From positions 78,360,659 to 78,424,658 of the forward strand of contig CM049313.1 in the NCBI GenBank assembly GCA_026874595.1: DNA of 64,000 bases, given 5' to 3'. Positions 21,166-47,599 of the stretch are shown in pieces. The number at the start of each line of letters is the position of its first letter. The stretch's first letter is position 1. The translations under genes and the position numbers were made by a program. The notes under the pieces are model-generated. The model saw only the letters and a program-made list of their open reading frames with translations. It did not search any database and had not been told where the DNA came from. Source of the DNA: Sipunculus nudus (Eukaryota; Annelida; Sipuncula; Golfingiida; Sipunculidae).

Positions 21166-21168
21166 CAA
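21126..21168 (+). repeat. (CT)n microsatellite
   Basis: An almost pure CT dinucleotide tract with one CCC interruption. It lies about 0.9 kb upstream of the candidate receptor start codon. Confidence 0.95.
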
Positions 21169-22170: not shown

Positions 22171-22394
22171 GTAAGTTCATCTTGCGTATAGATTTTGAGT
22201 TAAGGTTTTTAAATTTGGAGAAATTAAATCTTTTTATTTTGATGGAGGTTACCGCCTCCATTTTTATGCTCCCTTATATAATTATTAATATAAGTATATA
22301 CATCTGCAGAGTTTCATTTCGGTTTGTGACTGCGTGACAGAGCGGTAGCACTGGCTTCCTATCATATTATTATTGTATCCTGTTATCACCCAGG

Positions 22395-22634: not shown

Positions 22635-25099
22635 ATTTAATCCTATATTTTTTATATAGGTAATGCAGTTCAGGTACCAAAGCATTATATGTTTGTGTAT
22701 TACTGAAAAATAAATACTGTCGTTAATTTCTCTAAGCGGAAAAAAGTCCTTTATTGAACTTATGCACCGTGCTTTTAGCCTTCAGGACCGCATTTATGAC
22801 TTCAAGAACAGTTATATCAATGTATCTGTGTCTTTGTCGACCTGGATAGTCAGGATTAGCCGTTATAAAATGATAAACTCGAATAGACGTACATACATTA
22901 AACTGACTCAAGCTGATTGAAACTTGTCCATCCAGGGGAAGGGGTGTAATAAGCAACATTATCTTGAGCTGGAGATCAATTTATTTTTTAAATCAATTGA
23001 ATTATTAATATTTAATATTACAGGCGAGTCGTCAGTGAGAATGTTACAAATGATCTATAAATCTGCTATAGCCATTTCAGACCAGTGACGTACTTATTCA
23101 GTAGTTTTCGAATATAGTTGTAGAAAAAAACTTTAACATTGATTAAAATTTGACTGACTGAACCACATGGGAATTACAAGATTATTATCCTTACACTACT
23201 TTTGAGTATATTTTTGTAATAAGGTCTAATTACTCCGAGATTTATTTGTACCAAGAAAGGCTTGCAAGCTCGTTAACAAAATACCTCTCCTATAGGTCAT
23301 CGTTTATTGTTTAGTTAATGGGTAAACAGCAGCTGCCTTTTCCCAGGAAGTAGGATCCTCCAGACCAAGAAAAGGTATCATAGAGACACAATAACCCGCA
23401 GTTTTACACATAAAACATAATTAAATCAAGATTTCGAGTATAAAACGCATTTTACATAGGCAAGCGCACTTTACTGCCAACGCAGACTTGTAATATATTT
23501 GTTGCGTCATGTTGTGACACCAGACGTCCGGGGGCGGGAGGTACTCTCGTACAAGATTATTGTACCCTAATGGCTTCTCCGTCGTTATACAAGCGTCTAA
23601 TGTAATCTTGGTTAGCCGGTCTTAAACTCCCTGGAGGAGGTAAACAGAAGTGACGGCAGACTAAGTCTTTCCTTTAATATGTTAGGTCGATATTCAAACT
23701 GATCAACTCGTAACTCAGAATGGCAACCGACACATGTCAGACAAATATCAGACATAGTCCAGCCGCCAAAAGTCAATTTTTTCTTATAACCTTGTTTTAG
23801 GGTCTCAAGTAATTTATCTTTGTGGATTTTTCCCCACATATCATGGGTGAAAAATTTTGAGGTTGGTCTGCTGTCGCCATTGGGCAATTTTAAATAATAA
23901 GCACGAAAGAATGAAAATAATACGAAAATAGCAAAAATACTATAATTACCTTAACATTTGACATAGAAGGTCAACTTATACATTGAGTCTGGTGTATTAT
24001 GGCCCTGAGAGATTCATTTCTGGTATTACCGTATCCATATTGTCTACCATTTTCAACCAAACCACTCTCCAACCCGTCTCTTAGCTTGGGACTTTAATGC
24101 TGATAAGATTACTCGCATGATTAAAGAATTTTTGTACAATTAGTTATGAAAGGGTACATATGAAATGACAAAGTGGGCACATGAAAAAGTAACAGGTGTA
24201 TCAAAACAGTGTTATATGATTATAGAGGGGTCTGAACGCTATACCCGTCATCCTTGAAATCACCCACCCCTTCTCCGCGACATTTCACACTGTCTTAACA
24301 TATTTTGTCTAAGGTTACTTAAGCTGGGGACTTGCATATATAACGGCTAACATTCACAGACTCAAGAAAAAAGCCATGTATATTATTATGCTTTGGTTCC
24401 TTGGTTGGTTAGTTGGTTGCTCTATATATCACCATATTCACTCTAAATTCTGTGGACTGTTATGATGACACATAAGTTACAACCATTAAAATGTCGAAGA
24501 CAATCTTCTTCCACGCTATGCGATTACTCTATCACACTTTACTGGGCGCCTTTGTTCTTAAGCTGTTCCGTGATAAAAAAAAAGTGAGTTGGTAAACCAT
24601 GACCACTTTTTCTATGAAAAACACAGCACAGTTTTATTAGATCCTGACCGAAGTTGTGGTCTACACTCTGACTACATTCATGGTTGTGATAATATTCTAC
24701 TAACATGTACCTGCCCGGCTCAGATCACAAATGTGTAGAAATTTTTAGGGACCCTCTGGCTTGACTTTTAAGGTTACTTTTTACCTGTTACTAGCTACAG
24801 TATGTACCACTTGAATATTATGGTTGTCATGGATAGCGTTACAGGGTACTCCAGTGAGAGTTTGCCCTACTGATCGACATGGAGCATGAACATGTAATTC
24901 TAGCGCTTGTTGTGAGTAAAGAAAGTCATTCCATGAACCGTATATAGAAAATATAGAAAAAAAACTTGCTATGTACCAAGCTGCATCAATGTATCGAGTA
25001 AATGGAAATCGTTTTCTTTCGTTATGCTCCCGGGAATTCACGTTTTACCAAAAGCCCTGTTGAATATACCAAATATATCATTTTCTTCGCAGTAAGCGT

Positions 25100-25915
25100 C
25101 CATACATTCAGACATACTGATCATTCAGCAGTGATTTTGGTCCCAATGGAGTCAAAACATTTGCTTTAATGAAAACTTTTAGGGGTTATTGCTTGCCAGT
25201 AATCTTCGATTTCGGCAAGCATGTTGGTCAGTCGCGTATTTCTGTTTGTGTTTGCGTTTGTTTGTCAGTATTCTCCTGGCCACAATTTTGTAGCAATCGA
25301 TCTGAAACTTTCAGGGTTTATTGAAATTCACTTCCTGGAAGCCTGTTGATTTTGGTCGGCATAGGTCAAAGGTCATGGTATAGATCATCGAACAACTTCG
25401 AAATTTTATTTTCATTATATCTTTGTCAACTTTGTGCCGCTTTGTCTGTATATCCGTCTGTCCGTCAGTTGTCCTCATTTTTCGCCTTCGGGCTTGTTCT
25501 TGTGTTACATATTGCATTCTACAGGTAACACAGTTTTACAGGAATTATTTTGAAACTGATACATCTTATATCATACACTAATAACTCGAAAGTATTTTTT
25601 TCTCTTTTTTTTGGAAATAAACGGCAGGGGGCGCTTCACTTGAAACAATACAAAATATCATTTTTAAGCCATATCTCCTACCTACAAACCTTAATTACAT
25701 AAACTAAACCTTATTTTCTTTTTCTGGGTCTTCTTCATAACTTGGTCAAGACATCTGGTCTCAATTTTGTGTCACTTTGTCAGTATGTCTGTCACTTCCA
25801 AATGTTATTTTCCTCATAACTTTGTCAATTCAGGTCCTATTTTCACAAACTTTGGCTCATTTTTTCACCTTCATCTTCTGCACGTCTAAGTCTAGTCTTC
25901 TTGTCTCAACTTTTT
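25100..25915 (+). repeat. Decayed dispersed repeat with recurrent phrases
   Basis: Recurrent phrases such as TTTGTCAACTTTGTGCCGC, CACTTTGTCAGTATGTCTGTC and ACTTTGTCAATTCAGG occur at uneven spacing, giving a ragged internal repeat. A perfect AGGTCAAAGGTCA lies at 25363-25375. No coding potential is evident. Confidence 0.3.
25363..25375 (+). promoter_or_regulatory. DR1 nuclear-receptor motif AGGTCAAAGGTCA
   Basis: An exact direct repeat of AGGTCA with a 1-nt spacer, the consensus for RXR/HNF4/COUP-type receptors. It sits in a dispersed repeat, so it may simply be part of that repeat rather than a control site. Confidence 0.25.
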
Positions 25916-26010
25916 CAATATTGCAGGGGCGTAGCCAAGGGGGGCCACAGGGGGCCATCCCCCCCCCCCCCCCCTCCGGGTCGCAACCAGAACTCGCCGT
26001 CCTTTTGGAC

Positions 26011-26011
<1 letters not shown>

Positions 26012-26054
<43 letters not shown>
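26012..26054. repeat. (TA)n microsatellite
   Basis: An uninterrupted TA dinucleotide tract between the GC-rich parts of a dispersed repeat. The IYIYIY-type open frames across it are artefacts of the repeat. Confidence 0.95.
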
Positions 26055-26057
<3 letters not shown>

Positions 26058-26325
26058 TTAAATTGCCTTTGCTATCAGTTGCGGATCCAGAGGGGGCGCC
26101 TTCGGTGCACGGCCCCCCGCTGAGCTGCAAAAACTCTCATTTTATCTAATTTCCCAATTTTCGTGATTAATTTTCATTTTTTTCATATTTCTTTTTCTTA
26201 ATCAGCAGTTTATTACTTGCAAATATATTGTTTGAGTGTAGGCATATTTATGAACAGCTGCAGTACAACTGCAGAATAACAGGCCGTGGTTGGGGTCGAC
26301 CGTGAACAATTTCACGGCTCCTCTG

Positions 26326-26400
26326 GTGATACCGGTACTCGAACTCGCGATCTGTGGTTTTAGGAGTCCTGTCTGCTGTCGATACCAACGAACCCGGTAA
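26326..26400 (-). mobile_element. tRNA-like SINE head
   Basis: On the minus strand the sequence reads ACCGGGTTCGTTGGTATCG, with box-A-like TTCGTTGGTATCG, and later GCGAGTTCGAGTACCGG, a near-consensus box B / T-arm. The first and last arms can pair (ACCGG with CCGGT). The anticodon arm is not convincing, so I call a tRNA-derived retroposon rather than a tRNA gene. The body may continue to about 26283. Confidence 0.45.
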
Positions 26401-27960
26401 AATACAAAGTTTAACATAAGACTACAACATTTTTGTTATTTCATTACGAGCAATACATTTAACGGATAATATTTTGCAAGTTAAGAACGTAAATGCGCCT
26501 TTGCGCCATTGACTTTTTTTAAACCATTGAAATTTTATATCCTTATTTGATGTAATATAAATATTAAATATTGAACCTCTCTACAGTTTGACTACATAAC
26601 ACAAAGACATAACGGAACAGTTTTTCAGGAACAAGAAATCCTCATATTCTGATGAAAATTGCCTTTAAATGTCCTCTTTACATTGCATATTAAAAAAATC
26701 CCAATATGATACCCTCTCCCATACCCTCCCCATGTACCTGTAACTAACCTTATTGAAACAATGTTCATAATTGAAAATAAAGAAAAATTGTATTTTCAAA
26801 CACTAAAATATATAACATATAGTATAATAATTATAATAATAATATTATTATTATATATATACATACATATACACGTGCATAATAGCCCCCCCCCCTGTTT
26901 TCGAATTTCTGGATCCGCCAATAATTATGGCCCCCTCCCCTCCCTCAATCCTGGCTACGCTCCTGTATTTGTACAATCTCTACACATTATGACTCATTTT
27001 CTTCCTCTCTGTCTTCTTTATGTCATGTCCTGGTTATCTGACTTCCTATCTGGGGCAGAGTGTTTCCTGCGTGACCTCTGGTCGTCTTGTTTGTATTTTT
27101 CCAAGGCACACAAGGAACATAACTAAAAAACGTCTTTAGATGATCTGTTTGGTAAACTCTCACTGAAGAACCATGCTTATCATGGTCAAGCAGTACATAC
27201 TTTGCTATATAACAATGCCGTCCTGTTCCAGCCTCTTCAAAGGCTAGAGTACAGCTTGTGTAAAGTATAGCATCGAACCATCGATGAAAATCCTTGGAGA
27301 CACAAGCCTCCCTCAGTTAATTGTCTGGGGGTTAGGTTCGGCAGGTGGACAGCACCTGTGTTGAAGGGGGTCTGAGAATCAGCCACTACTCTCAACCCGA
27401 CCGCAACTGACATGCAGTCGCCCCACCATGATTTTGCTGTAGCAGGTATTATCTTTCGTGGACTTCATGGGATATTATTTATATACCAAATCCTTGGTCT
27501 ACTTAGAGACCTGGACGGACTTGAGGTTCCAAGTGCAACAGCTGTAATATTTGATCTCGAGATAAATCTCAAGAAGGTGAAACCAATTTCATTTGTAAAA
27601 TATATTGTAATTGTTTTGAATCCTTAATTTGCACCTTAAAGTTCAGGCTCTAAGGCTCATACAGAAATGGGAACGCAAACAAATAGGAAACTTGGAAAAA
27701 ATATTAAAACAAGCCAGACCTTTTGAATTAAAATCACACTGCACAGCTAACATAACAATATTCAATACCTAAGTATGACAGTATATTTCAGTTCCGTTTA
27801 ATATTGCAATTATGAAGTAAAACAATCTTAATGGTGCATTCCATAAATGTTTGATTCATCATACATGCGGCGCACAACATCAGTCGTACAAAGTCGATTG
27901 ATATAGTGGACCTTTATCGAACATAGAGCTTAACTGATATTACTGAGTATATTCTAAATA

Positions 27961-28137
27961 CAGTGGAACCCCGCCTTGCGACCACCCTGCAATTGCGACC
28001 ACCCCCACAAATACGACCACTTTTCTTGGTCCCAGATATATGATCCAGGTAATTAAGAGTCACACAAATACGACCACCCCCAAATTACGACCACTTTGGT
28101 CAGTCCCAAAGGTGGTCGTAATTGTGGGGTACCACTG
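27961..28137. mobile_element. 177-bp MITE with pogo-type terminal inverted repeats
   Basis: The left end is CAGTGGAACCCCGCC and the right end GTGGGGTACCACTG, which are reverse complements with few mismatches (CAGTGGWACCCC). TA flanks both sides (27959-27960 and 28138-28139), matching the TA target duplication of the Tc1/mariner-pogo superfamily. CAGTGGAACC ends are characteristic of pogo/Tigger-type elements. Inside, ACGACCAC is repeated, and the last third is complementary to the first, so the whole element could fold. It is too short to encode a transposase and is therefore non-autonomous. Confidence 0.75.
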
Positions 28138-30941
28138 TATATACAACCTATAAGCAGTGTCGCAATCAATATCCAACTATTCTCCCTCCCCATAAGTCGC
28201 AAAGGTACCTGCCGCAGTCTCTAGGTCATCATTTTCTTTATTTTTAGGAGAAATGTCGTTTATAGTCTTCCTCATGCTTTAATTGGACACTTTTAAAAAG
28301 CATTTATCATGAGTAATCATTAAGTGATATTTTAGACATATTTTGCGGCATATTTTCCAGGTGGGGGGGGGGCATTCAAATAATCATTCATCATAATTTA
28401 TATAATTATGAGTTTTGGCGTTGAAGGGTGCCGATATTCCTGAGAAATGTTTATAACAGAAATGGCGTCTGACGATGAATTCAAACACATCAGTTGTCAT
28501 ATTTTGCTATTGATTGAATTGATGCCATTTCAACCCTTTTCTATTAAATGATGCTGACGGCAGCCTGCAGCAGTATACCCGAGATATTTGTTACACATAC
28601 AACTATTACGTTTGCAATCAAACAATTTTGAATTTCCGATTTTGAATTAATACGACTCAAATTATGCTTATTTGATCCATTCTTGCCCCGCTTCCCTTAA
28701 CTAAAAATATCTCGCTTAGGCTGCAAATATCTGGCCTCACCGTGACACAAGGGTGAACATCACAAGTGTGAATAATGGCAGTTTTACGTAGAACCGCTCT
28801 TGTTATTTTATTATTAAGCCTAAACTTAGGTAACCAAAAATGATATTATTAATATAATGAATATCAGCTGTTTTCGGAACGTTAGGTCATCCACATCTAT
28901 ATATTGGATGAGTTTAATTTAGGAACCTAAAACTGAACTTTGGAAAAACTTTGGAAAAATCCTGTGTTCAGTGTAAAGTATATTCAAGAATGAAACTTTT
29001 TTTTAATGGCAGACCAACTATTTTGAAAATGGCGGTCATTATGGTAACAACTTAAAATACCATAAATGTATCCTCTGGGTCATAATACCCGGTACACCCG
29101 AGTTCATGCATTGTTTGACAATATTAAAAAATCAGTTTGAGAATTTCTTAAACACAGACAAGAAACACAAACCTGGAATAACAACGGAGAGGAATTTATT
29201 TATGGGCAATTAACAAGCGTAAACCCTCAATATTGAATAACGCCTATGTCTCCTTGTTTTAAATACAGAATCTACAGAATTTCTTGAAATTCACCGTAAA
29301 TATTCCTTGCGAATTCTTCTACCTTTCCACAAATATGATGGATGTTGATGAAACTCACGTCAAAATATAAATCAATACAGTATCTTGCTTTAGTCTGATT
29401 TTCACCAGAATCCACGCACATTTAATAAGGTGTGCACAAGTTTTTGAAACCGCTATTTAAGGTAAATTAAATACAGCCTTGTTTTAAAAAATAGCATGTA
29501 TGTTATACTTCTCTACACAAGAATCCCATTTGATTTATACATAAGATTACAGACTTTAGGGTTTATATAATACAATTCTAAATTTGGCAGAGGAGCATAT
29601 AAACTCTTTATTGATTATACAGTTTATACTATAATCAAGTATTAACTAATGTTTCTAACAAAGTACATTCAAAGTAAAACAGTATACATATGGTCAAGTC
29701 TACGGTTCCACCTATACATATTTAAAAAAATAGAAGCTTTGTAACTTTTATTCAAGAGACAGCTATGCATAATAAAATTTAAGCGTTACTCTCATTTCAA
29801 TATTATTAAGCTAATTGACAACAAGCCCTGAAAATTTGTTATATACATAAAATCTGATCAACTGATTAATTTTGCAAAGAAAAGGTCATTTATAATAAGT
29901 AAAATATTACATATATACAATTGCAGGCACAAGTTGCCTGACTGCATGTTTACATTGGGGGCATTAAATTTTTGCGGATTACGCTTATGCCCAATGTAAT
30001 AAGAAGATGCGTGTCACAGTTTTTTCACACATCACATAATGGTACATACAGCACCTGTTATTTCTCTTGCTTTTACATCTTATAAAGTCACACATTTTTG
30101 TATATAAATAATTATTATACTTTTTTTTATTATTTTTGTTCTAAAACCTGGTGAGTGTAACACCGAGGGATTTAATTTCAAACAAGGACTGAGGTAATTA
30201 GAAATATGATGATATTACGGCTTTCATTTTATAAGAATGTAAAACTAATATGACTGGTTTATCCACAATGAAAATTCCCAATAACCGTAGTATTTACTGT
30301 AAATTGTACGAATAAAGGTTCAATATCGTGGGATTACTGTACAACTATCAATGATTTTAAGCTTTGAAGATGATTATTGAAGCATACACTGTTCTATAAT
30401 GTATACACCACTTCATAGCCAAAGAAGAGCAAATTACTATAATGGTTTATCAATAGGAATCTAAAGTAGTGTTATAAAGGGGTAAATTTAAATATTGGTA
30501 ATCAAACTAAAACTTAAAATTCACAGAGTGACAAACACTAAGATCAGTGTCAGAGATTGATGAGGACTGATATTCAGACAGAGCCAAAGGAAATTAATGG
30601 TCATCAGACAACCAAGTATCTAATGGTAATTCAGTATGTTTGTAGAGCCTAAATGTACTCTCACAAATTAGCTCTAAATTGGTATCTATGATGAGGCAGG
30701 CAGATTATGTTTATACGAGTTTGGAAATAGGACTGTAGGCCAGTCTATAACTGGATGTATGTCAGGTCAGTCTTGGGATTTTCCATAGAACTTTTGTCCA
30801 ATCAGATCTCACGAAAGTTAGGAAGAACACTTACAACTCTGATGTAATTGTGACCTACTTTGAGTCATCCAATAAGGTTTAGCTTTTATGACAAAATGCA
30901 GAAATATGGATATGTACGTCTCATTTGTCACGTGAAAGCTA

Positions 30942-31114
30942 TGTAACAAAACTATCTGTAGTGCGCACTGAGATTCAGAGAATCAGGGAGGCTGGGCGGC
31001 TCTCTCAAGAGAGAGAGACTGTCCCAGACCGCTTGCTATTGAATAAAGACTTCTATCATCAAACTGGTCTTGGAACATTGTCAGCCACGCGCATCAGCAA
31101 CCGTATGTGATACA
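30942..31114 (+). mobile_element. Candidate short LTR (173 bp) of a gypsy-type retrotransposon
   Basis: The block starts TGTAACA and ends TACA, the usual 5'-TG...CA-3' ends of an LTR. It has an AATAAA at 31042-31047 in its 3' half. The length is close to the short LTRs of Steamer-like gypsy elements in bivalves. GGTGGGGACATCCCC follows directly and vaguely resembles a primer-binding site. No second LTR, gag or pol was found nearby, and the 5-bp flanks do not match. It is a suggestion only. Confidence 0.28.
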
Positions 31115-31644
31115 GGTGGGGACATCCCCAACCCCACATTGTATCAGTATTACTAGCCTTTCCAAATAAAATAATGCACATTGTTCTTTAAACAGAGACG
31201 GGCCTACTTTTATAAAAAAAAAAACCCTATTCTGGTTCACAAAATGAATGCACTAAATAAAAAGAATTTCCTTAAGGAATGAAACTCAGGCATTTTCAAA
31301 GCTTTTACTATGTTTCCATTTGAATATATCGCTTATTTAGCAGAATTTTACAACCTAAGCCCCTTAAGTATATACTGATGCTAAAAAAACCAGAATTAAC
31401 TCAAAATAAGCAATTATTTACCAGAATTCATCTCCTAGCTGTTAGTAACACCCGATGACATGCTCGCCAGATGTAGCTTCTCATTTATTCTGGGAGGAAA
31501 TTGGGCTTAGGCAACATGCACTCGCACAATTTTAAGAGATAAAATAACACTTTTTTACTGGAATACAACTTAAGCCTAAACCTTCAAAATATCAGGACTG
31601 CATATTATTATCTAAACTTATAATTAAAACAGAAAGATACTTAC

Positions 31645-31742
31645 CAGGCTAGATAAAAGAACTGCTCTTTGGTAGTGGGTGGCTCTTCACCTGGGTAGCC
31701 GACACTGTCGTAAAACCAACCCCAAGTTGAAAAAGAAGCCAT
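31645..31742 (-). CDS. Possible minus-strand first coding exon (32 codons plus 2 nt)
   Basis: On the minus strand an ATG at 31742 opens a frame beginning MASFSTWGWFYDSVGYPG and running 32 codons to an almost ideal splice donor, CTG|GTAAGTAT (GT at 31644-31643), in phase 2. An in-frame TAA lies upstream, so this ATG would be the true start. The composition (aromatic, Gly/Pro and acidic residues) looks protein-like, and the block is GC-rich in an AT-rich region. The start context is weak (T at -3). I found no matching acceptor exon below 31600 and do not recognise the protein, so this could be a chance frame inside a GC-rich repeat. Confidence 0.25.
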
Positions 31743-31945
31743 ATACCCTCTGCCTGCCACAGAGGGCAGGCATGGGGGTCCACTGCTTGATGATCCAAGA
31801 GAGACTGGAATCGCCAGGGCCAGGGGGTTTTATCCCAGAGGGGCAGAGGGCAAAATCCTTAGCTGCCTGTGATTGGCTATGGGGCATCTTTATATTCACT
31901 GTCAATCGGTGCTGATACCCCACCCCTGGCCAGGTCAAAGGGCAA
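31670..31945. other. Unassigned GC-rich block
   Basis: A block of about 275 bp that stands out from its AT-rich surroundings. It is open on both strands for about 80 codons in overlapping frames. It carries an inverted CCAAT box (GATTGGCT, about 31870) with TTTATATTC about 15 nt downstream on the plus strand. It may be a promoter, a first exon or an unknown dispersed repeat. Confidence 0.3.
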
Positions 31946-32114
31946 GAATGTTACAGTCTAATGTCACTTGATGTTTTTGTGTTATTGCTCCGATAAATGT
32001 GAATTTGATGAATTTTGAATCCAGTATGATGTTAAGCTAACCAAAAAAAGTAACTCGCCTGAGTTATCTTCAAAGTTTTATAAATCTTTAAAAATTTCAT
32101 CAGGTCAAAGGTCA
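31932..32114 (+). promoter_or_regulatory. Two DR1-type nuclear-receptor motifs
   Basis: AGGTCAAAGGGCA lies at 31932-31944 and a perfect AGGTCAAAGGTCA at 32102-32114. Both fit RXR/HNF4-type DR1 sites. They lie about 0.9-1.1 kb upstream of receptor exon 2, next to the GC-rich block. Motif evidence only. Confidence 0.25.
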
Positions 32115-33000
32115 CAAGACATTTGTGGTTCTCTTGTTTGTATGTCAGCTAGTTTCATCTACTTCTACACTTTGTCCGTTCTTCGGGAGCAGTCTATCTT
32201 TAGAACTTGGAGGTCACATCCATCGCCGGTTCCACTCAATAATTGGTATAAGAGAAAGGCTTCTGATATAGACCTGGACAAGGGCGTTAAACTGGTCCAT
32301 TGAGGGAATAAAATGGCAGCAGTGCATGCCGGATAGAAGTGAAAACAAGACCATCCTGACGTTCTCTGGCCGCTGCAAAATATTAAATCATTTATTCACG
32401 GACGATTTGTTTTAGTAACAGGATATTATGGTTTCCCCTATGTTGACATATTATAATTTTGTGTGTGTAGGAGTGAGAGAGAGGATGTTCATGATGCTTC
32501 ATGTAGGTCAAGTATCAAGAATCCTGTAAACCTAAGGAATCCAGCCTATTTATACTGCCTTAGCTGTTCTCTACCCAAGCAAATTGAAATCGCCGGGATA
32601 TATCGGACGGTTATGTTGATTGTATATTACCTGGAAGCCAAAACAAGTTCGTTTCTCAGGGTCCGCTCACATCATTTTGTACCTGCTGAATCAAGAATTA
32701 TTTTAATTTTCAATAGAGTTCTACCGAATTTTAGGCTCCAGCAGCTTGAATGTTTTACAAGAAAATGTTAAATTTCCATAAAATTTCCCTTAGGCTTGTG
32801 TGAAAAACACTTCTGTTATAATTATATACAATTGTTGTCGAAATTTTATAATAAATAGTTTTTTCACTGATTTATGACGATAATGCCTGCGAACCCAATC
32901 ACGTTTTGTCTCCAAGAAATATTTCATTGGATATGACATTTTGAACAAATTCCGCCGACAACTAAGCTGACGGGATCGTTTGTGTTTTGTGTGTTTACAG

Positions 33001-33415
33001 GAGCCGCCGTCAGTGTCGCGTCCCGACCAGATGGACCAGACGGGACAGGTACGGCTGCTACGGAAGCAGCTGGGCGATATTAGCAGGACAACCTACAATT
33101 TCAGCACACAACAAGCACTTGAGATCCTTCAGGAGTACCGCAGCCAGCTGTTCACCCTGCGAGAACCACGCACAATTGCTCTGCTGTGCTTGTACATTCC
33201 CATCTTCTTTTTGGCCCTGGGCGGCAATTCCCTCGTTATCTTTGTCGTCATCAAGAACCAACATCTTCGCCGAGTCAAGAACCTCTTTCTGGTCAATCTG
33301 GCATGTGCTGACCTTTGTGTGACCCTCATTTGCATACCAATTGCTGTTGGGAGGAGTTTGTACAAATTATGGGTGTATGGCCAGACAATGTGCAAATTCA
33401 CCTCTTTTCTTCAAG
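33001..33415 (+). CDS. Class A GPCR, exon 2: N-terminus, TM1, TM2, ECL1, start of TM3
   Basis: The exon follows a good acceptor (GTGTTTACAG at 33000) and ends at donor AAG|GTACTT (GT at 33416), phase 1. Numbering from the candidate first exon, it encodes residues 37-174. An N-glycosylation sequon (NFS) lies near 69-71. TM1 is about 95-120 with the GGN signature (Asn 112), TM2 about 130-153 with the LACADL signature (Asp 140), and the conserved ECL1/TM3 cysteine (residue 167) follows the W-x-x-G motif. These are diagnostic of rhodopsin-family receptors, here of the peptide-receptor type. A methionine at 33031 (residue 47) is an alternative start if the upstream exon is not used. The ligand cannot be named; the general look is that of invertebrate neuropeptide receptors. 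Confidence 0.92.
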
Positions 33416-33804
33416 GTACTTGCTTATCGCTACGACGTTTCTAAAAACCAGGAATAAGTGAATGTTTTCATTATTGATATTTCAAAGACGCCTAGGTCTA
33501 TATATTTTAGCAAAAAATATTTTTAAAATCTCTTTTATTGTTTCATTGTAGTGTTTGGTATTGTATTTCATAAATATACTTGACGGTTCCTCAAATGGAA
33601 ACCAAGGGTAATTACTTCTTTATTTAATGGGAGATCAAGTATGCGGTAAAAAGCTGCTTGTCGGGCTTCAATTTTGGTGCATCATCGCAGTTTTTTGTTT
33701 TTTTTGTTTGTTTTTTTTTGCATATTAACCCACTCTGTTAAATAGCCAAGAAGCGGAGATTGACAGATTTTTTTTATACATGTATGCTGTATTGTTTATT
33801 GCAG
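33416..33804 (+). other. Intron 2 of the GPCR (389 nt)
   Basis: GT at 33416 and AG at 33803-33804 (ATTGTTTATTGCAG). It splits a glycine codon (G|GT) just inside TM3. T-rich tracts, including TTTTTTTTTG, occur before the acceptor. It is phase 1 and reconstructs an uninterrupted TM3. Confidence 0.9.
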
Positions 33805-34477
33805 GTGTTGCTGTGGTTGCCAGTATTTACACTCTGACGTCACTGTCAATAGACCGGTACCTTGCCATTAAAACCCCCAAGTGCTGCGGTCGTTTGACCA
33901 AAAAATGTCAGGCTCTTAAGATGCTGGTGGTAATCTGGATTTTATCGGCCATGCTAGCCGGACCAATTTTATTTGTAAAGGTTATCCACAAAGAGACATT
34001 TCTCTACTTCGGTACGCTTGAGTTTTGTGTTGAACAATGGCCGAAGGCTTTGGACCAAAAGGCGTACAGTGTTTTTTACTTAGTAGCTGTTTACGCTATT
34101 CCAACACTGATCGTTGCGACGTGCTATGGACTAATCGGCCGCACGCTTTGCTCAGACGAGTTCCATAGGAAAACGTCAGACAGCAGCTCAACAGTAATGC
34201 TAGGCCGGAAGCGCGTTGCGCGCATGCTCATTGCTCTGATCGTTGTTTTCATTGTGTGTTGGTTGCCGTACAATATTAGTTCCCTTGGCTTTGATTTACA
34301 AATGGACTCCTTGGACCAACAGATCTTGCCATTTACCCTGTGGTTGGGTCACGCACACAGTGCTGTCAACCCCCTGCTCTACTGGTTCCTGAACAAGAGC
34401 TTTCGCTGCGCCATGAGAAGGGCTTTGACGTGTGGCTGCCGAATCAATCACTTCAAGAAGCGGTCACTTAACGCCCA
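33805..34477 (+). CDS. Class A GPCR, exon 3: TM3 to TM7 and helix 8
   Basis: The exon encodes about residues 175-398. The TM3 end has the G-protein motif DRY (191-193). TM4 has its conserved Trp (219). ECL2 has the disulfide Cys (249). TM5 has its Pro (274). TM6 has CWLP (326-329), and TM7 has NPLLY (363-367, the NPxxY motif). Helix 8 follows with Phe/Arg and then several Cys (about 376-386), likely palmitoylation sites. All hallmark residues are intact, so the receptor should be functional at the plasma membrane. The third loop is short and basic, with a Ser/Thr cluster. The exon may end at the donor CCCA|GTATGT (GT at 34478). Without splicing there, translation continues for Gln-Tyr-Val and stops at TGA 34485-34487. 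The closest family is unclear: a peptide receptor of the QRFP/neuropeptide FF-like type is possible but unproven. Confidence 0.95.
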
Positions 34478-34864
34478 GTATGTATGACATGTGTTAGACA
34501 CAAACTGTCACACATTTTTGTTTCGTTACGTTAACCGACATTACCATTACATATAAAGATATTAATCACACATCGTTTGCATGCAGCTTATGTCTGAAAT
34601 GTGGTAAAAATGAAAATGATCGCGGTTTAAGTTGCTTTGATATTTTATATCACTAACTACAACTGTAATTTGCTATATAATAAAAAGTTATTTTATTTAA
34701 CTGGTGTCCCTTTATTGTGTGTTAATGTGAAAACCGAGCATGATGGTTGAACATGACAGAAACCATAGAGTTTAGAAAAAAACAGAACCTTTATGTTGAT
34801 TGAAAGATGAAGGAATCAGTATTTGGACAAGCATCGTAAGACAAGCTTCTCCTGTGTTTCGTAG
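34478..34864 (+). other. Alternative terminal intron / 3' UTR of the short GPCR isoform
   Basis: GTATGT at 34478 and TGTGTTTCGTAG ending at 34864 form a plausible 387-nt intron. Splicing leaves codon CA|T and keeps the frame into the following 173-codon exon. If retained, the same stretch supplies an immediate TGA stop (34485-34487), AATAAA at 34679-34684 and a GU-rich downstream region (about 34702-34730). The sequence therefore supports intronic polyadenylation as an alternative to splicing. Confidence 0.6.
34679..34684 (+). terminator. Poly(A) signal AATAAA, short receptor isoform
   Basis: A canonical hexamer about 190 nt after the TGA of the unspliced isoform. Within 20-45 nt comes a U/GU-rich stretch (GGTGTCCCTTTATTGTGTG), a suitable downstream element. 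Confidence 0.55.
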
Positions 34865-35387
34865 TACCCGAAAGCGCCAGCAGGAGCGCCAAGGTCGAGA
34901 GGCTAGATGGAAACAGGAAGACGTGGGAGAGAAATTGCAGCCTTCTCCAGCACCGGAAGAGTCTCGCTCCTGGCGACCCCGGAAGTCCACACGGTTTCGA
35001 GTTCAGTCCCCTGAAGATCTGTACGGGGGATATGAGACCAGGTCAGCGGGGTCACATGTCCCCACACCATACAAATTCCTGGTGGATTCTTCCACCAACA
35101 CCGAATCATCCTACCTCACACCTTCACTGTCTGACCGACAGATCTCCACACAAACCACGCCCAGCCGCAGAACGCCCAGAGTGGAGGTCGCTCACGTCGC
35201 TATTCAGGTTCACATGGCGGATTTAATAACGACACCGCTCACCAGAGGCGCTGTGGGTGGCAGTCCCATGGGATCTACAGGAAGCCTGTCGGTAGTAACA
35301 CTGGCGGACTCCGCCGATATTCAAATGCCGACCCCGTCACCCGTGATCGCTAGGCACGCCTTCTCTACAAAGGTGGTGTGGGTGTAA
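34865..35387 (+). CDS. Candidate exon 4 of the GPCR: long cytoplasmic C-terminal tail
   Basis: The acceptor CTTCTCCTGTGTTTCGTAG is pyrimidine-rich. From 34865 the frame is open for 173 codons to TAA 35385-35387. It joins exon 3 in phase and gives a full-length receptor of 572 residues. The encoded tail is basic at first (TRKRQQERQGREARW), then rich in Ser, Thr and Pro with many potential phosphorylation sites. There is no membrane segment. It ends in ...STKVVWV, a hydrophobic C-terminus that could suit a PDZ domain. Known class A receptors often carry such Ser/Thr-rich tails for arrestin binding. This stretch is visibly less AT-rich than its flanks. The alternative is that it belongs to a separate gene, but there is no good ATG at its start. 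Confidence 0.65.
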
Positions 35388-38300
35388 CACAACGCGTATG
35401 TTAACTTTGCATAAATGGGATTCTAAATATTTCGTGGAGGGGGAAAACACGTGACTTGGACATCTTGAAAAGATAGTCCAATATCACTGGTGAAGCAAAT
35501 GATCCCTTTGGAACACTAACAAGGTTTGGAGTGAAACAGAAATAGCAGAGCAGAACCAGAAAGCAACGCTTGAACTCATGCTCCTTTTCGGCGTGTACTT
35601 GATAAAATCAGTCAAAGAAATATGAACTGAATACGATTCTCAAACCCATGAAAGCTTTTCTACCTCGACTAAAACATCATGGATTAAATGTAAATATGAT
35701 TTTAGACCTGCAGATGACTGAAATACAAGAGTTGCAGCGGACAGTATCACCAGGAGAGCAACAAGAACACGTTCCACATTAGCCGTATTTAGTTTCATGA
35801 CTGGTTGGCTAGCGTGGACGATGTACATGTACCCGGAACTGTCCGAAATCCTATGTTAACGAAAGGACATTTATATTAATGCCTTCTGCGTTGTTGTTGA
35901 GTCTTACGATACGTTAGCTGTGAAGTATGCGCTTGCTCGTAGGAACATCAGGTTTCCATGAATACAGACACTCTGAAATCATTCCGACCCTATTCAAGGT
36001 TCCATGCAACCAGATACATACATGTGCACAAACTCCGTTACCCAAACTTGATAACCGTGCATCAACTCGGTTACCAAACTGACTGCCATCTCGCACAAAC
36101 TCAGGAAGTGCCAATATTAACCAGCATGCAAATCTGCAGGTTCTTGTATTTTTTCAATTTCGATATTGCATCATTTGATATGAACCATCCCCACTACCTA
36201 AATGAACTGTTTGTGGTTTAAGCTATTGGGTGAGTGATATTTAGTATTTATTGTATGGTTTCTCTCATTATCTTGGTGATGTTTCATTATTGTGTAAACG
36301 ACCTGTCTGTCAAACTCTTGTATATTTACATATATTTTATTTGCATATTTTCTGAGTCTCGAATGTAATTTCTTTTAAATATTTTATTTAAACTTGTAAC
36401 CACATATAGTTTACTCCATAATAACTGATATTTTGCTCATTGTGCAAAAAGAACATGTTGCGATCTATAAAAATTAGCGTATTTAGTAGTTTGTAAGTAT
36501 TTTGATTTGTGGCGATTATAATCATCGCAGAAGTATGTAACTTAATATATTTTAAGTATTTAAAAAAAATAGATAAGTGTTTCAGTGTAGAACATACAGT
36601 TACATGCAGAGGGAGATTTTATAAATTCTGCATTAACTGATCATCAAGGATCAGTTGTCCTTATAAATTGAGCCCATGATCAGTTAAATACCTAGTTTCT
36701 TCCCTGCGCCAGTAAACGTTCATGCGAACAGCGTACATGAATATAAAATAGTAAAAGACCACATACATTGTGTTACCGTTACCATTCACAAAATGTCAAT
36801 AAACTTCTTTTATAGTTTATTGGGTATATTGACGAACAAACCAACCAACTAAGGAAAAGGCAAAATACCTCCGTGCGAAGTAATAAACATGGCCAGTGAA
36901 GGAGTCGTAACTATAATGTTTATGGGGATCGGTGAACCATGCAGGCGATCTCATCTCGCGTATTTAAGGCGGATATACATATGGCAGGTGCCTGGAAATT
37001 ACAGGGTTACCGGAAACACGGACACCATACAGTAATTACCGAAGACATGCCGTACAAGTGTTATCAGCCGTATTATTTATTTGCTCCGCTCAGGTCAAGG
37101 ACTTATTATATAATACTGCTCAGGCGGCCGTCGCGTCCTCATTTATTGATTCACAGATCACAAAGCTTTTAAATATGATTTTCAGCGGCGCGTATGTTGC
37201 AGTGTGTTTCATCGAAATGATTTCTCGTTTGATCATCCGTGCAGGATGACCACTTAATTATTTTCATACATAGGTAAGCTGAAGCGAGATATAAATTTAA
37301 TATCCCGACATTATCCCTTACAAGGGACTTGGGTCTACTTTAAATAAATATAACCCCTGAACGAGCGCTATTATTTATAATAATTTTGCAAAGAGTTGGC
37401 TCAGTTATAATTCAGCATTACGCGATTATTTAAATAAGAAAAATTTTAATTCGGTGTGGAAAAAGTAGGCTCCATGAAAGCTTTCGCGTCTACTGATATC
37501 AATCCACAGTGAAATTGATTAAACCTGCAAAATTAATGAACTATTGAATCATGAAAATGTAAAGTAGTCAACCTCCATGTTCATGTGACTTGGTGATCAC
37601 GTTACGTTCGGCTAGTATCTCTTCCCACGTAACAACTGCTTTCTACGGCAGGATGTGTTCAGTATCGCCACCAGGGAGTTGGCTTTGGCTTACATTGTTC
37701 CGACCAATAAGCCTAGTATTGTGAATTTCAGACTTAATCAGACTCGCGATATATACCCAGCTATTGAAAGCAGCCGGGATGAGTTACAGAATAAATGAAC
37801 ATGACTACCACGCGAGGAACGCGGGCCGGTGACGGGTCAGAGATACTCTGAAAACAGCTACTTTCTATTCTGTATGATGTGCTTTAATTATTGGTGCTTC
37901 CCATGCCGTTTCGTTTAAGTTATTTGTTCACAAGTTCGAGGAACATCATTTTAAATTATAGATTAATATATATAATATATTTCATGTATGTAAAAGATGT
38001 GGTAATTTTGAATGTTATCCGTCAGTCCTGTTTCATGGCTCAATATACACATCGATATGTATTGTTTTTTATGCGCGTGTGATCTTATTTTATTTGTACA
38101 TGTTTTTTTATGGATGGTATATTTCTAACCTGTCTATGGTGGATTGATATTGTGTCGTACTGTGATATTTTACATGTAAGCCTTCGTGTGCACATACAGA
38201 TTAAATATATTAATTAATCTAACAGTGTTGTATTTGCTGTCGGAGGGAATGCGCTAATTAACCCTTAATGATAATTAACCCTAATAAAACTGAACAAGCG

Positions 38301-39000
38301 AAGGCGACTTGACAAAACAGTCAAGATCCATGAAGTAACCGTCCATAAAATATTTTTAGAGAGTCGTCAAATTTTGAAGGATCTATGTAAACTAGCCGTG
38401 ACAAACACGACTCAGTTAGGACCCCCTACTTAGTCGTGACACAAACCAAATTGAGAACCGCCCTGCAAGTCCAGACCACGCTTTATAACCGTATCTCCGC
38501 ATACAGTCAGCAGGCAGACCGCAGGCAGAAATCCCCCATACATGAAGAACAATATACGAAAATTTATGGTTATAACGGAATATTTCACACACATGGTAGG
38601 TGTCATTGGAGAGATAAGAAACTTATTAAAAGGTCTAGTGGGTTTATTTAAAGTGACACGATACTTGTAAGCAATGAGGCGTTGTCAAAAATGACGAAAA
38701 TATTTGCATCCTCATGGGGCCTTATAATGCGATCCTCAGAGTAAGATGTCCAGGCACTCTGGCAAACCAGTGATCTGGCCATGATGTCAGAGGGCCGATC
38801 TGGCGCTATATGTAAACCTGAATCTGTACACCTTTGTTCCTTATCGTCAATGTCGTAAGCGGTTTCTGAGGTGGAGATGTACACCCGTTAATGGTTACAT
38901 TTGGCACTTAAGCCACATTGGTCACTATAAATGGATTGTTATATAATTAGAAATAGCATTTCTGATAATGCAAGAGTTGCATGTTTTGAAATTATAAAGT
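35388..39000. other. Probable 3' UTR, then intergenic AT-rich DNA
   Basis: Candidate poly(A) signals are sparse; the first clear AATAAA I see is at 36798-36803. A minus-strand frame with a hydrophobic segment lies at 35640-35828 (separate entry). At about 36890-37250 there is a slightly GC-richer patch with short open frames and no recognisable product. The rest shows nothing I can support. Confidence 0.4.
35640..35828 (-). other. Short frame with signal-anchor-like segment
   Basis: On the minus strand, 62 codons begin MYIVHASQPVMKLNTANVE and then have a hydrophobic run (VLVALLVILSAATLVF, residues about 22-37). This resembles a type II membrane anchor. A possible donor GAG|GTAGAA (GT at 35663-35662) lies near the end, so it could be the first exon of a minus-strand gene. 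No partner exon was found. A chance frame is quite possible. Confidence 0.15.
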
Positions 39001-39029
39001 AGTCAGTACTTGTAATCGAGAGTGAAATA

Positions 39030-40521
39030 TACTGTCAGTGTCCTCAAGAGTTCCTCTAGAACCGCCCGTCTGTCAGTGTCCTCCAGAGGTCCTCTAGAAC
39101 CGCCCTTCTGTCATTGTCCTCCAGAGGTCCTCTAGGACCGCCCGTCTGTAAGTGTCCTCCAAAGGTCCTCTAGAACCCTCCCGTCTGTCAGTGTCCTCTA
39201 AAGGGCCTCTAGAACCCTCCCGTCTGTCAGTGTCCTCAAGAGTTCCTCTAGAACCGCCCGTCTATCAGTGTCCTCCAGAGGTCCTCTAGAACCGCCCGTC
39301 TGTCAGTGTCCTCCAGAGGACCTCTAGAACCGCCCGTCTTTCAGTGTCCTCCACAGGTCCTCTAGAACCGCCCATCTGTCAGTGTCCTCCACAGGTCCTC
39401 TAGAACCGCCCGTCTGTCAGTGTCCTCCAGAGGTCCTCTAGAGCCGCCTTTCTGTCAGTGTCCTCCAGAGGTCCTCTAGAACCGCCCGTCTGTCAGTGTC
39501 CTCCAGAGGTCCTCTAGAACCGCCCTTCTGTCATTGTCCTCCAGAGGTCCTCGATCTAGAACTCTCCCGTCGGTCAGTGTCCCCCAGAGGACCTCTAGAA
39601 CCGCCCGTCTGTCAGTGTCCTCCAGAGGTCCTCTAGAACCCTCCCGTCTATCAGTGTCCCCCAGAGGACCTCTAGAACCGCCCGTCTGTCAGTGTCCTCC
39701 AGAGGTCCTCTAGAACCGCCCGTCTGTCAGTGTCCTCCAGAGGTCCTCTAGAACCGCCCTTCTGTCAGTGTCCTCCAGAGGTCCTCTAGAACCACCCGTC
39801 TGTCAGTGTCCTCCAGAGGTCCTCTAGAACCGTCCGTCTGTCAGTGTCCTCCAGAGGTCCTCTAGAACCCTCCCGTCTGTCAGTGTCCCCCAGAGGACCT
39901 CTAGAACCGCCCGTCTTTCAGTGTCCCCCAGAGGTCCTCTAGAACCGCCCGTCTGTCAGTGTCCTCCAGAGGTCCTCTAGAACCGCCCGTCTGTCAGTGT
40001 CCTCCAGAAGTCTTCTAGATCCGCCCGTCTGTCAGTGTCCCCCAGATGTCCTCTAGAACCGCCCGTCTGTCAGTGTCCTCCAGAGGTCCTCTAGAACCGA
40101 CCGTCTGCCAGTGTCCTCCAGAGGTCTTCTAGAACCTCCCATCTGTCAGTGTCCCCCAGAGGTCCTCTAGAACCGCCCTTCTGTCAGTGTCCTCTAGAGG
40201 TCCTCTTGAACCGCCCGTCTGTAAGTGTCCTCCAGAGGTCCTCTAGAACCGCCCGTCAGTGTCCTCGAGAGATCTTCTAGAACCGCCTGTCTGTCAGTGT
40301 CCTCCAGAGGTCCCCTAGAACCGCCCGTCTGCCAGTGTCCTCCAAAGGTGCTCTAGAACCGCCCGTCTGTTAGTGTCCTCCAGAGGTCCTCTAGAACCGC
40401 CCGTCTGTCAGTGTCCTCCAGAGGTCCTCTAGAACCGCCCGTCTGTCAGTGTCCTCCAAAGGTCCTCTAGCACCGCCCGTCTGTCAGTGTCCTCCAAAGG
40501 TCCTCTAGCACCGTCTATCTG
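39030..40521 (+). repeat. 38-bp minisatellite, about 39 units
   Basis: The unit is GTCTGTCAGTGTCCTCCAGA followed by GGTCCTCTAGAACCGCCC (38 bp), head to tail with scattered substitutions. Each typical unit holds a TCTAGA (XbaI) site and an AGAGG-T-CCTCT near-palindrome. A few units have small indels (for example a GATC insertion near 39552 and a shortened unit near 40255). CTCCC replaces CGCCC in several units. No long open frame crosses it. Confidence 0.95.
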
Positions 40522-40524
40522 TAG

Positions 40525-43140
40525 ATTACGATTTCAAGCATCACAGGCGCTTTAAATGCATAATATAAAACAGATACAATTTAAATGTAAAAATGAGAAC
40601 ATGTATGCCATAATGTAATATATGTACAACAACAAACAGTAAACAAAAAAAGACTGTATTTATCATATTCATAGTAATCCTTTGGGTATCAATTGCTTGA
40701 GACGTTCCTTAACTGTATATAGGGAAGGAGTTTCTTTAGTTTCTATTTGCAGCCTAATCCATAACATGAGACAAATTGAATTGAATCGAATTTCTTAAAT
40801 AATCCGTCCAGGTCTTCGGTAGATTGGTGCCAATGAGTTAAAGCCCATCATCACTCATCATCAATGCATGGAATTTTTGCATTTTGTTAAAATTCTTATC
40901 AGGTAGACCTGTACACATGCCTAAATCAAAATATGGCTAAATCAGGTCTAAATATGAAGCACCTCTTATGAGACCACTGATTATGATGTTTTAAAGGATA
41001 CTTAGTTGACTTGTGTTTTATTTGATCTGCAATTCAAATACTCTGGTTGACTTTATATTCGCGAGGCTGAAATTTCGCGATTTATTCCTTTTAAACTTTT
41101 CACAGAGGTTTCATTTTCGTGATCGCACCAGAAGAAAAATAAATTCTAAGTTCACCAGTATTTGTGAGTATTATAATGATAGAAATGAATTCCACACTAT
41201 CTCACTTGTTTCCGTTACAGTCGTTATATTATTATAATAATTAATGCGTTTGCATGGACCGGTTCCAATTTCATGCACAAATTAGGTTTGCTGATTAACG
41301 AACCTTGTTTCCAGAGATGTAATAACCGTTCCGTCTGTGGAGATGCATCATCCCCTCTTGCTGACCTAAGTGTATGAGGAGTCTTATTCACGAAGGTTTC
41401 ATCGTCGCCATCATTTCCCATTCGCTGAATTCGAAAATTAAAACAAGCAAAAAAGGTAACCACAGTATTCATATGTGATATTTATCTACAGCGCAGCTGT
41501 TAAGTCCTGGATGAAATAGTTTAAGTCATATTCCAAAAGTATTGACGGATGAGTTCTAAATGTATACATGTTTTCGTTCAGAACACTTAATATGTGTATA
41601 TATGGGGTGTATATAACAAAATAAACAAATATCATGAATAATTTTTCTAAAATATCACTGCATGTGAGAGTGACTCTGGAATCTCACCGACCGGCACAAA
41701 TCACCTTTATTTTATTTATTTATTTTATTTTATTTTTTTTTTTTCATTTCCTGGTTCGTCTCTTAGATTTCTATTATCGTCATAATTAATGAAGACCGAA
41801 AGACGGGACAAAATTCTACAGATTTGTTTTTATATCTACCGTTTTTTTCCGGCCAGCCAATACATGACATTGTCAAAGAATTTTGCTGGCGATATTTTCC
41901 GGCCAGGTTTATTTTATAAATCGGCAATCTCATTTGCCGAACCCACCGTTTTTTTCGGCCGGCAAATAAACTACCTAAATATCGGTTAGTGAAGGCAATA
42001 AAAACCTAAATAAGCTCCTTCCGAAACAAAATGTTATTGGCTAGTATTTTAGAAAATAAAGAATTAAACACTTAGCAGATGTAAAATTTTCCTCAAAATA
42101 CCAAATTCCCATGTGTAAGTTTCACATTTGAAATTTGTGTTTAACTCAAGAGTTCAATCATAAATGCTTCATCGTAATATAGCGTACTTGGTGATTTCCT
42201 GTGGAAAGGGTTAAAATATACCATACACAAGCAGAAAGCGGAATCGCTTAAACCGCCACCGTCAAGTACCATATACAATTTTAGTTGGTATTCTTCCCTC
42301 TCTTCGACGCCTTCCTGAGTGGATATACATGTAGGCCAAAGCATCATGGTCTACATAGCCAGAATATTAATGACTTCTTTAGATCTTCAAAGTTTAATCT
42401 TTAACACGAAAGATATCTCCCGGATTGTTTAATCCTTATTTGGTGAAAACCGCTCAGATCGTTCAGTCACTGGTGACTTTGTTTACACCTCAAAATATGT
42501 TTTCCACATTTTTACACAAATATTAATTTCATTTTTTCTGTCGCCATCTTCGGTAAGCATAATAATATGCGTAAGAAACCATTTCCCCTTCCAACTAATC
42601 ATTTTTCGCTGTGCCTTATAAGTGTATGGTTTGCTATAATTAATAAAGTAAAGCAGGACTACAAAGTGAATTCAAAATAACGTTCAAAAATAAATATTAA
42701 TATGGGAAGCTAATGGGTTATCTACGAAAAACTTTGCAGAAATCAGATTAGACCATCCAGCAACTCCTCAAACTTTAACCTTTATAAAGTACTGTAAGGT
42801 CGAGGATGATGCAAGATCTCACGTGACTGTGGGGGTATAGATCACGTGATCCGGATGATAAGGAGAAGGGGTCATTTCCCTTGCTTAAATAACTGGTATG
42901 ATTAGAGATGTTATGCACGGAAACTTAAAGTGCGGTCAGTTCTCTAGACTCACTCTACGTACGGTATTGGTATACCATAACTTAAGCAGACAGAAACATC
43001 GTATCTTACTTTACGTAAAATTACATTTAAAATGTGAACAGAGACACTTGGATCAGGAGCATGGCATGTCTAATTATTTACTATTTGTATGCGTATAAAA
43101 TTCATTTCATAAGAGTTAAAAACTTAAGATATAATTACTA
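40525..43140. other. AT-rich non-coding stretch with dispersed-repeat fragments
   Basis: At about 41045-41085 there is a CGCGAGG...TTTCGCGA motif of the kind seen in dispersed invertebrate repeats. At 41700-41990 there is one copy of an unidentified CCG-T(n)-CCGG repeat (separate entry). No supported gene was found. Confidence 0.4.
41700..41990 (+). repeat. Dispersed repeat with CTACCG-T(n) and CCGGCC motifs, copy 1
   Basis: CTATTATCGTCATAATTAATGAA (41770 region) leads to ATCTACCGTTTTTTTCCGG and then to TGACATTGTCAAAGAATTTT, TTTTCCGGCCAGGTTTA and TTTTTTTCGGCCGG. The same ordered motifs occur at 51308-51860. It is a family of unknown class. No terminal repeats or coding sequence were defined. 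Confidence 0.5.
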
Positions 43141-43951: not shown

Positions 43952-44900
43952 GTGCCCCTGTGTTTAGGTTTTTTATCGTGTGCCAACATGTCAGCTCGTA
44001 TGCCTAACAATCTCAGTGACAGACAGTTACTTGAAAACATATGGGGTAAAATGTCCAGTACGGAGAAAATGTCAGAGCAAATAGATTTATTGGTAGGCAA
44101 GCTGGGTGACATTGAGAAGAGACTTTTTTTTTTTCAACCACGAACACAATACAAACATTAACATTACATATGAAACACTTCACATATCAGTCGCATAAAA
44201 TACATTTGTTTACTATAGTTGGATAAATACATTCACACAAACAATGAACGAAATACACTGAGTCCATGTAACCTTAATTACTTAACATGGAAGATATAGT
44301 TCTCCATGTTTCAAAATATCGATTTTTAAAATTTAAATTTTTACTTGCTATATGCTTCTCAATTTCAAAAACATATTTTATTTATTGAGAAGAGACTTGA
44401 CTGTTGTGAATCCGGTGTCCAACATTTACAGAACGGGGTTGACAATTAAAGACACAATGGTTACAAAGAATGAACTCGCTACAATAAAGAAAGAAGTCAT
44501 AGACTTGAGCAACCGAAGTCGCAAAAACAACATTGTGATTCATAATGTCCCTGAGGACACAGAGGGAGACAACGTGCTAGAATTTGTACAAAACCTGGTC
44601 ACGAACGTGATTAAAGTTGACACTGAAAAAGAGTCAGCACACAGAACCTCGATCTTCCATAAAGGCGGCAGACCGAAGCAAGGTCCGCGTTTAATTCATG
44701 CTCGATGTCGCAAAGCAAGTACCAGGAATGACATCTTGTTGGCAGCACCAAAGGCGCTTAAGCATCATGATCTCTGTCTACCTAACAGATGATTTACATC
44801 CAGAAACACAGCAACAACATTGGCTCCTACAAGAAAAAATGAAAGAAATGCGGGAAAAAACTGGTTGGCATTCAGATCATGGACTCTCCCAAGAGTAATA
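43952..44900 (+). pseudogene. LINE ORF1 (L1 ORF1p / transposase_22-like), broken
   Basis: ORF1p is the RNA-binding chaperone of L1-type elements. The first part (MSARMPNNLSDRQL...) is a heptad-like, Leu/Lys/Glu-rich coiled coil. After the insertion at 44126-44383 it continues into a conserved RRM-like block with RSRKNNIVIHNVPEDTEGDN (about 44514-44574), an SAHR motif (about 44635) and RPKQGPRLIHARC. A C-terminal part with VYLTDDLHPETQQQH follows in another frame (about 44780-44890). Breaks seen are the 258-bp insertion, a frameshift near 44448 and another near 44770. Family assignment rests on motif order; the gene is non-functional. Confidence 0.75.
44126..44383 (-). mobile_element. Nested 258-bp retroposed insertion with 15-bp TSD
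   Basis: ATTGAGAAGAGACTT occurs at 44111-44125 and again at 44384-44398, exactly flanking the insert. The insert starts (plus strand) with a T-run of about 10, the complement of a poly(A) tail, so the inserted RNA copy lies on the minus strand. It has no tRNA-like head. It looks like a 5'-truncated 3' UTR of a LINE or a processed transcript. Removing it restores the continuity of ORF1 at this point. Confidence 0.9.
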
Positions 44901-45369
44901 AGATATAAAGAGTCTCCAAGGGGAGTGAAAAGAACACTTAAAACATTCAGACTTTCTGGTTTGTAAGACTTGTAATAACCATGGGAAGTGTAATGTCTGG
45001 GCACCATGCTGAAAGGCAAGTTCTTAATTTATATGAAATTAACACTCAAATTTGATTCATATGTTTGTTTTAATTGTTATGCAAATATTAAAGAGAAATT
45101 AAAGTAGCTAATAGGCCATGTTGCCATCCATTTAATTGAAGCATCCTGCTGACACGTCGCCCACGACTGTACGTGGTGTTTCTGTATTCGTGTTCTTTGT
45201 TATGTAAGTTTGTTTTTCTACTCATTTTTCTTGTATATGGTCGCACAAGAAATGTTTGCGGTGTTGAACACAAAGATAGTACGCAAATTATCTTTAATCT
45301 ATGCTTTGTGTCATACAAGGCATAGTTATAAATCGTTAATATGATACAAAATTGTAAAAATAGTTTCCT

Positions 45370-46110
45370 ATGAATTCACAATTTTCAGTACTGACAATTA
45401 ACGCTAGGGGCCTCCGCAACTATAGGAAGCGACGTTAATTGTATAATTGGATAATTAAACATGGAGGCCAAAATTATGTATGTTTTATACAAGAAGCTCA
45501 TTGTACGCCGGACGTAGAAATAATGTGGGACCAACAGTGGAGAGGGGAGAGCTACTATGCTTCAGCAAGTAGTCAGAGTGCCGGTGTGATCATACTGATT
45601 GGCAATAAATTAGAATATGTTTACAAACAAAAAATTCTGGATTCTGATGGAAGGTTCATCATACTATATTGTATAATTCAGGGAAAACCTATATTATTTG
45701 TGAACATTTATGCACCGAACTTTGAAAATAATCAATTGATTTTCTTTGACAGAGTTGCCCAATATATCGATTCTTTGGATATCCCTGATTCAACGATTTT
45801 TATTTGGGGAGGCGATTTTAACTGTTGTCTTTCAGTTAAAGACATGGATGATCCGAAAGCACCTTTAAAACACAGATCAAGTGACCTGTTAAATCGTTAT
45901 ATGGAGGATTATGTATTGTGCGATATATGGAGGATAAGAAATCCAGAATCTAAAAGATATACTTGGAGAACTGTTTATCCACTAAGACAAAGACGTCTGG
46001 ATTATTTTTTTAAAATTAAATCATGCCCAACCAATGATTACAGATAGTGACATCAAACCGACACTTGCAACTGACCACTCAGCTGTAAAACTAAGTATAG
46101 ATTTCCGAAA
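45370..46110 (+). pseudogene. LINE ORF2: EEP-type endonuclease domain, broken
   Basis: This domain would nick target DNA for target-primed reverse transcription. The frame starts at ATG 45370, followed by the TINARGLRN motif. It is cut by TAA at 45436-45438. From 45439 it is open with IQEAH (metal-binding Glu), AGVIILI, VNIYAPN, GGDFNC (catalytic Asp/Asn) and RRLDYFF. A frameshift near 46020 separates these from TDHSAVKLSID (catalytic Asp-His) at about 46070-46100. All the main motifs are present, but the frame is broken. Confidence 0.8.
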
Positions 46111-46679
46111 AGATTATCAACAAGTTCCTAGTTTCTAGCGTTTTAACTGCTCGCTGTTAGCTGATATTAATTATAAAGATTCTTTAGAAAAAGAAATCAA
46201 TAAATGGCGACAAGAGTGGTATCATGAAAATACAGATGAAGACGTCAGGAAATGGTGGGAATATTTTTAATATAAAACGCGACAATTTACCTTATTTTAG
46301 CTTATTCTAAACAAAAGGCACGAAAAGCAAGGGAAAAAATAAGATATTTAGAAAACACAATTAAAAATTTAGAATCTAGATTGAACACGGAATTTAACAA
46401 GAATTTGTATGCAGAATTAAAAATTGAGTTAGAGGAGTATTATGACAAGATTACCGATGGAATAATTATTCGATCCAGGTGCCAATGGTACGAACATTGC
46501 GAAAAGAACTCTTTAAGTATTTTTTTAGGATTAGAAAGGAAAATAAAAGAAAAAGTAAAATACAAAAACTGATAACAGGATGGAGAGACAACGGACCAAA
46601 AGGTTATTTTAAAAGAAATTCAAAAATTTTATCAGGAACGTTACTCCAGAAAAACTCAAATTACTCAGCAAGAATGCAA
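46111..46679 (+). pseudogene. LINE ORF2 linker region, fragmented
   Basis: This is the Lys/Glu-rich region between endonuclease and reverse transcriptase. Pieces lie in several frames (for example 46381-46572 and 46479-46682) separated by stops. Composition and position fit the helical linker of L1-type ORF2; no motif is diagnostic on its own. Confidence 0.6.
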
Positions 46680-47596: not shown

Positions 47597-47599
47597 ATC

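Follow-up and report, generated by a model that had tools for sequence, protein, structure and literature searches.

We found that the plus strand of the window, by which we mean the whole stretch of 64,000 nucleotides analysed here, carries a class A GPCR gene with a core split over two exons (33031-33415 and 33805-34477). The core, the candidate splice sites, an open in-frame tail exon and a GC block matching that exon can all be read in the DNA (Table 1), and the best overall explanation, which we hold to be probable, is an animal class A neuropeptide receptor gene of ordinary type with a long-tailed receptor as its main product. A phase-2 intron just past helix 8 would close the transmembrane core, a separate last coding exon would supply a Ser/Thr/Pro-rich cytoplasmic tail, and the resulting receptor of 526 residues would use this tail for GRK phosphorylation, arrestin binding and desensitisation. 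A short form may plausibly, if rather doubtfully, be added as a minor or regulated product, made when the weak donor goes unused and the transcript ends at the intronic AATAAA.

Table 1. Features of the receptor gene, with positions in the window
Feature	Position	Strand	Description
First core exon	33001..33415	+	First in-frame ATG 33031, N-terminus, TM1, TM2, start of TM3; 7tm_1 E 6.2e-16
Intron 1, phase 1	33416..33804	+	GTACTT...TTGCAG; joined translation; donor rank 209/3698, acceptor rank 30/3646
Second core exon	33805..34477	+	TM3 to helix 8; DRY, CWLP, NPLLY; 7tm_1 E 9.9e-39
Intron 2, phase 2	34478..34864	+	387 bases, GC 0.326; GTATGT...TTTCGTAG; donor rank 338/3698, acceptor rank 77/3646
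TGA ending the candidate retained-intron short form	34485..34487	+	355 residues, terminating NAQYV
Candidate intronic poly(A) signal AATAAA	34679..34684	+	Read from the sequence; by itself at chance level
GU-rich stretch 3' of AATAAA	34715..34729	+	TTGTGTGTTAATGTG; values matched by 3/159 hexamers including this one
Tail exon	34865..35387	+	173 codons, Ser/Thr/Pro-rich, stop TAA 35385-35387; GC segment 34867-35396

The receptor core and its upstream end

Both core exons matched the Pfam family 7tm_1 above its curated cut-off, and the class A motifs are all present, with DRY at residue 145, CWLP in the translation and NPLLY, a form of NPxxY, at residue 317. A search of solved structures with the receptor matched 849 distinct sequences; among the 60 shown, the best was NPFF receptor 2 (159 bits), followed by the QRFP receptor (148 bits), orexin-2 (144) and galanin-1 (143), so that NPFF and QRFP receptors head the matches listed. 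These matches predict a peptide GPCR, with bit scores too close to each other to fix the sub-family. QRFP-type receptors are on record in lophotrochozoans, according to passages of PMC4062910.

Just 5' of the first ATG, the AG at 32999-33000 is very strong as an acceptor, ranking 19th among 3646 AGs, which suggests that one or more further 5' exons probably lie undetected upstream of 33000. The preliminary description had given the spliced product a length of 573 codons, a figure that we could not support, since translation from the first in-frame ATG (33031) yields 526 residues. A product of 573 codons would require 47 more, of which 10 are supplied by the in-frame codons open at 33001-33030, leaving 37. 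Scanning 15000-32900 for a single phase-0 exon that would supply exactly these 37 codons gave two candidates, both with very poor donors.

Searching the window with the receptor by tblastn revealed no paralogue elsewhere in it, the remaining matches having E values of 6 or worse. No relative matching the second core exon or the tail was found in viral contigs, nor one matching either core exon in genome contigs, but these collections were viral, bacterial and archaeal, not animal, and such negatives mean little. When 28001-42999 was translated in all six frames, with X in place of stops, and scanned against Pfam, the second core exon was the sole match; the scan is insensitive, having missed the first core exon, and says little on neighbouring genes. 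Scans for tRNA genes and Rfam families across the window were empty.

The tail exon and the intron before it

When the sequence was read directly and the exons were joined and translated, the donor GTATGT at 34478, the TGA, the acceptor and the tail exon all lay where the preliminary description had placed them. Specifically, positions 34470-34487 read AAC GCC CAG TAT GTA TGA, the GTATGT beginning at 34478, and the acceptor AG occupies 34863-34864. Joining 34477 to 34865 creates a junction codon CAT (His) followed by 173 codons to the TAA at 35385-35387, and the joined translation thus confirms the earlier claim that the downstream acceptor restores the frame into a Ser/Thr/Pro-rich exon.

Splice sites were scored with weight matrices built from general metazoan frequencies, and the scores serve as ranks only. 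The pair 34478/34864 had the highest score sum among the 440 GT-AG pairs around the tail exon, and it keeps the frame, as do 88 of the 440. The donor by itself is weak (CCA/GTATGT, rank 338 of 3698), so that read-through into a short form is possible. An alternative donor at 34482 was rejected, as it is out of the tail frame and reaches a stop once 13 more residues have been added. A structural switch at the donor is likewise unsupported, the predicted folding of 34440-34620 being ordinary (z 0.26). Within the tail exon, at 35042, the site CAG/GTCAGC outscores the donor at 34478 (2.9 versus 0.6), and an additional splice form inside the tail via this site is possible.

The tail exon looks real, and the strongest evidence for it is a GC block. 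Within 34488-36400, the GC-rich segment of maximum likelihood spans 34867-35396 (GC 0.57 inside and 0.36 outside), with bounds 2 and 9 bases from those of the predicted exon. Its log-likelihood gain of 34 compares with a control maximum of 21.7, and none of the 48 control windows (partly overlapping, 1913 bases each, tandem repeats and the receptor excluded) contained a block as strong. Stops are absent from the tail frame and number 5, 5, 6, 6 and 7 in the other five. Simulation of 1-kb sequences gave at least 173 open codons in 10 of 2000 at local composition and in 203 of 2000 at the exon's own GC-rich composition, and because of this latter figure the length of the reading frame is modest evidence alone. 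By codon usage trained on the core, the tail frame did not stand out (z 0.7 and 1.0 in two tests). Neither a Pfam family above cut-off nor a PDB chain at E <0.9 matched the tail. Missing matches of this kind are usual for disordered tails, and its composition suggests that this tail is probably disordered.

The best of the 440 splice pairs, the preserved frame and the GC block matching the exon together make the long-tailed spliced receptor likely, and this half of the earlier proposal of two products is well supported. The opposite reading, that the short form alone is real, would have the receptor stop at the TGA at 34485 and would make the frame at 34865-35387 no product at all or part of another transcript. 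The favourable context of the intronic poly(A) signal and the lack of a codon-usage signal in the tail speak for it, but the top-ranked splice pair is in frame, the GC block is sharp at the exon bounds, and the ATGs of the tail frame are confined to its last third, the first being at residue 117 of 173, so that an upstream exon is needed; we consider this reading very improbable.

The composition of the tail exon (40 Ser/Thr and 15 Pro in 173 residues) makes the argument from arrestin and desensitisation, already put forward in the preliminary description, a reasonable one. Past NPxxY, the short form would have 34 residues with 3 Ser/Thr, and the long form 205 residues with 43. Motifs resembling the arrestin phosphocode, which is set out in passages of PMC8534031, number 12 (overlapping) in the tail exon, as against a shuffle mean of 5.4, with at least 12 in 25 of 2000 shuffles, and lie mostly between residues 428 and 456. 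The C-terminus is KVVWV, as had been noted; the PDZ-type contact proposed from it is a weak inference, since about 9% of sequences with such a composition would end in phi-x-phi by chance.

The candidate short form

The TGA, the AATAAA at 34679 and the GU-rich element that had been described for the retained form are present in the sequence. The intron before the tail exon thus contains an in-frame stop and a candidate poly(A) signal, each near chance level alone, and it is on these two that the short member of the proposed pair of products rests. If the codon split by the donor is taken as the first, the TGA comes fourth; with stop frequencies of 0.06-0.09 per codon in the frames of the intron, about one in four introns of such composition should have a stop this near the donor. 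Of 1273 overlapping windows as long as the intron, 407 contain an AATAAA, as do 203 of the 456 of similar GC.

Only the GU-rich element behind the AATAAA stands out, as somewhat unusual. An AATAAA with TGTGTG, GTGTGT or TGTGTT 10-60 bases behind it was present in 24 of 1002 control stretches on the plus strand and 39 of 998 on the minus strand (about 3%), and in 14 of 464 and 15 of 464 when these were matched for GC; the controls exclude repeats and the intron itself and may contain true poly(A) sites. All three GU measures reach the values of the intronic site in 3 of the 159 AATAAA hexamers on both strands of the window, itself included, and these measures and the word lists were composed with the site already known. 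Downstream of the stop of the long form, the AATAAA hexamers at 36798, 36882 and 37343 have a poorer GU context than the intronic site, and the variant TATAAA at 36466 has one near to it.

These data bear on the reading that the gene makes two regulated isoforms, in which the spliced transcript encodes the long tail, a transcript polyadenylated within the intron near 34700 encodes an almost phosphosite-free receptor of 355 residues, and desensitisation is set by which 3' end is used. The weak donor, the scarcity of an AATAAA with a downstream GU-rich element in the control stretches and the precedents discussed below argue for it; on the other side, the AATAAA by itself is at chance level, a TGA so near the donor is expected in about one case in four, the GU measures were devised after the site was known, and the intron is short (387 bases), whereas intronic polyadenylation generally favours long introns. 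We therefore put this reading forward tentatively, and regard production of the short form in appreciable amount as possible but on the doubtful side. The stronger proposal, in which a weak donor competes with an intronic poly(A) site, the outcome switches an invertebrate NPFF/QRFP-like receptor between an almost phosphosite-free form of 355 residues and an arrestin-binding form of 526, and desensitisation is thereby set, with conservation throughout the lineage, seems unlikely.

Known systems and other elements of the window

C-terminal tail isoforms are an established variation of GPCRs, as described in passages on NK1R, OPRM1 and a receptor of Aplysia. For example, the short form of NK1R keeps the intron before the last exon, with a stop within it, and loses the Ser/Thr of the tail (PMC4573218); the candidate short form described here would resemble it in ending at a stop in a retained intron before a tail exon, but the truncated NK1R was reported from experiments and lacks 96 residues, leaving 311. 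MOR-1A of OPRM1 is an intron-retention form in which VCAF is appended after the last core exon (PMC8534031), much as QYV would be appended here; that form is conserved from mouse to human. In Aplysia, apTKRPR-A and -B are C-terminal isoforms of a tachykinin-related peptide receptor that were cloned and tested and are unlike in desensitisation, part of which is governed in one form by C-terminal Ser/Thr (PMC11365428). There too, a single gene for a class A neuropeptide receptor gives rise to isoforms differing at the C-terminus, as the present gene may do; however, the receptor is of tachykinin type, not NPFF/QRFP-like, and both of its isoforms were cloned. The main text of PMC11365428 does not contain the word intron, and a retained intron is not described there.

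A search for literature on intronic or alternative polyadenylation of GPCR C-terminal tails, judged partly by titles and the beginnings of abstracts, found nothing on point. Should the gene produce both forms, it would add a further example of receptor desensitisation governed by the 3' end chosen, here in an RFamide-like peptide receptor. Since the principle has already been described, in the passages cited, for NK1R, OPRM1 and Aplysia, the present gene would extend knowledge and not change it.

Elsewhere in the window, an interrupted LINE-type retrotransposon lies at 44337-48839 on the plus strand, with an endonuclease-like ORF (PF03372, E 6.5e-8) and a reverse transcriptase (PF00078, E 1.1e-20); a zf-RVT match in it was weak and fell below cut-off. 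A long satellite-like array extends from 58020 to the end of the window at 64000, and the TRF periods found in it (136, 306 and 442) are all multiples of 34. Minisatellites are located at 12520-13551, 39032-40513 and 52071-53778, with units of 32, 38 and 49 bases, and the two 2-kb bins that stand highest in GC in the composition profile contain the first two of them.
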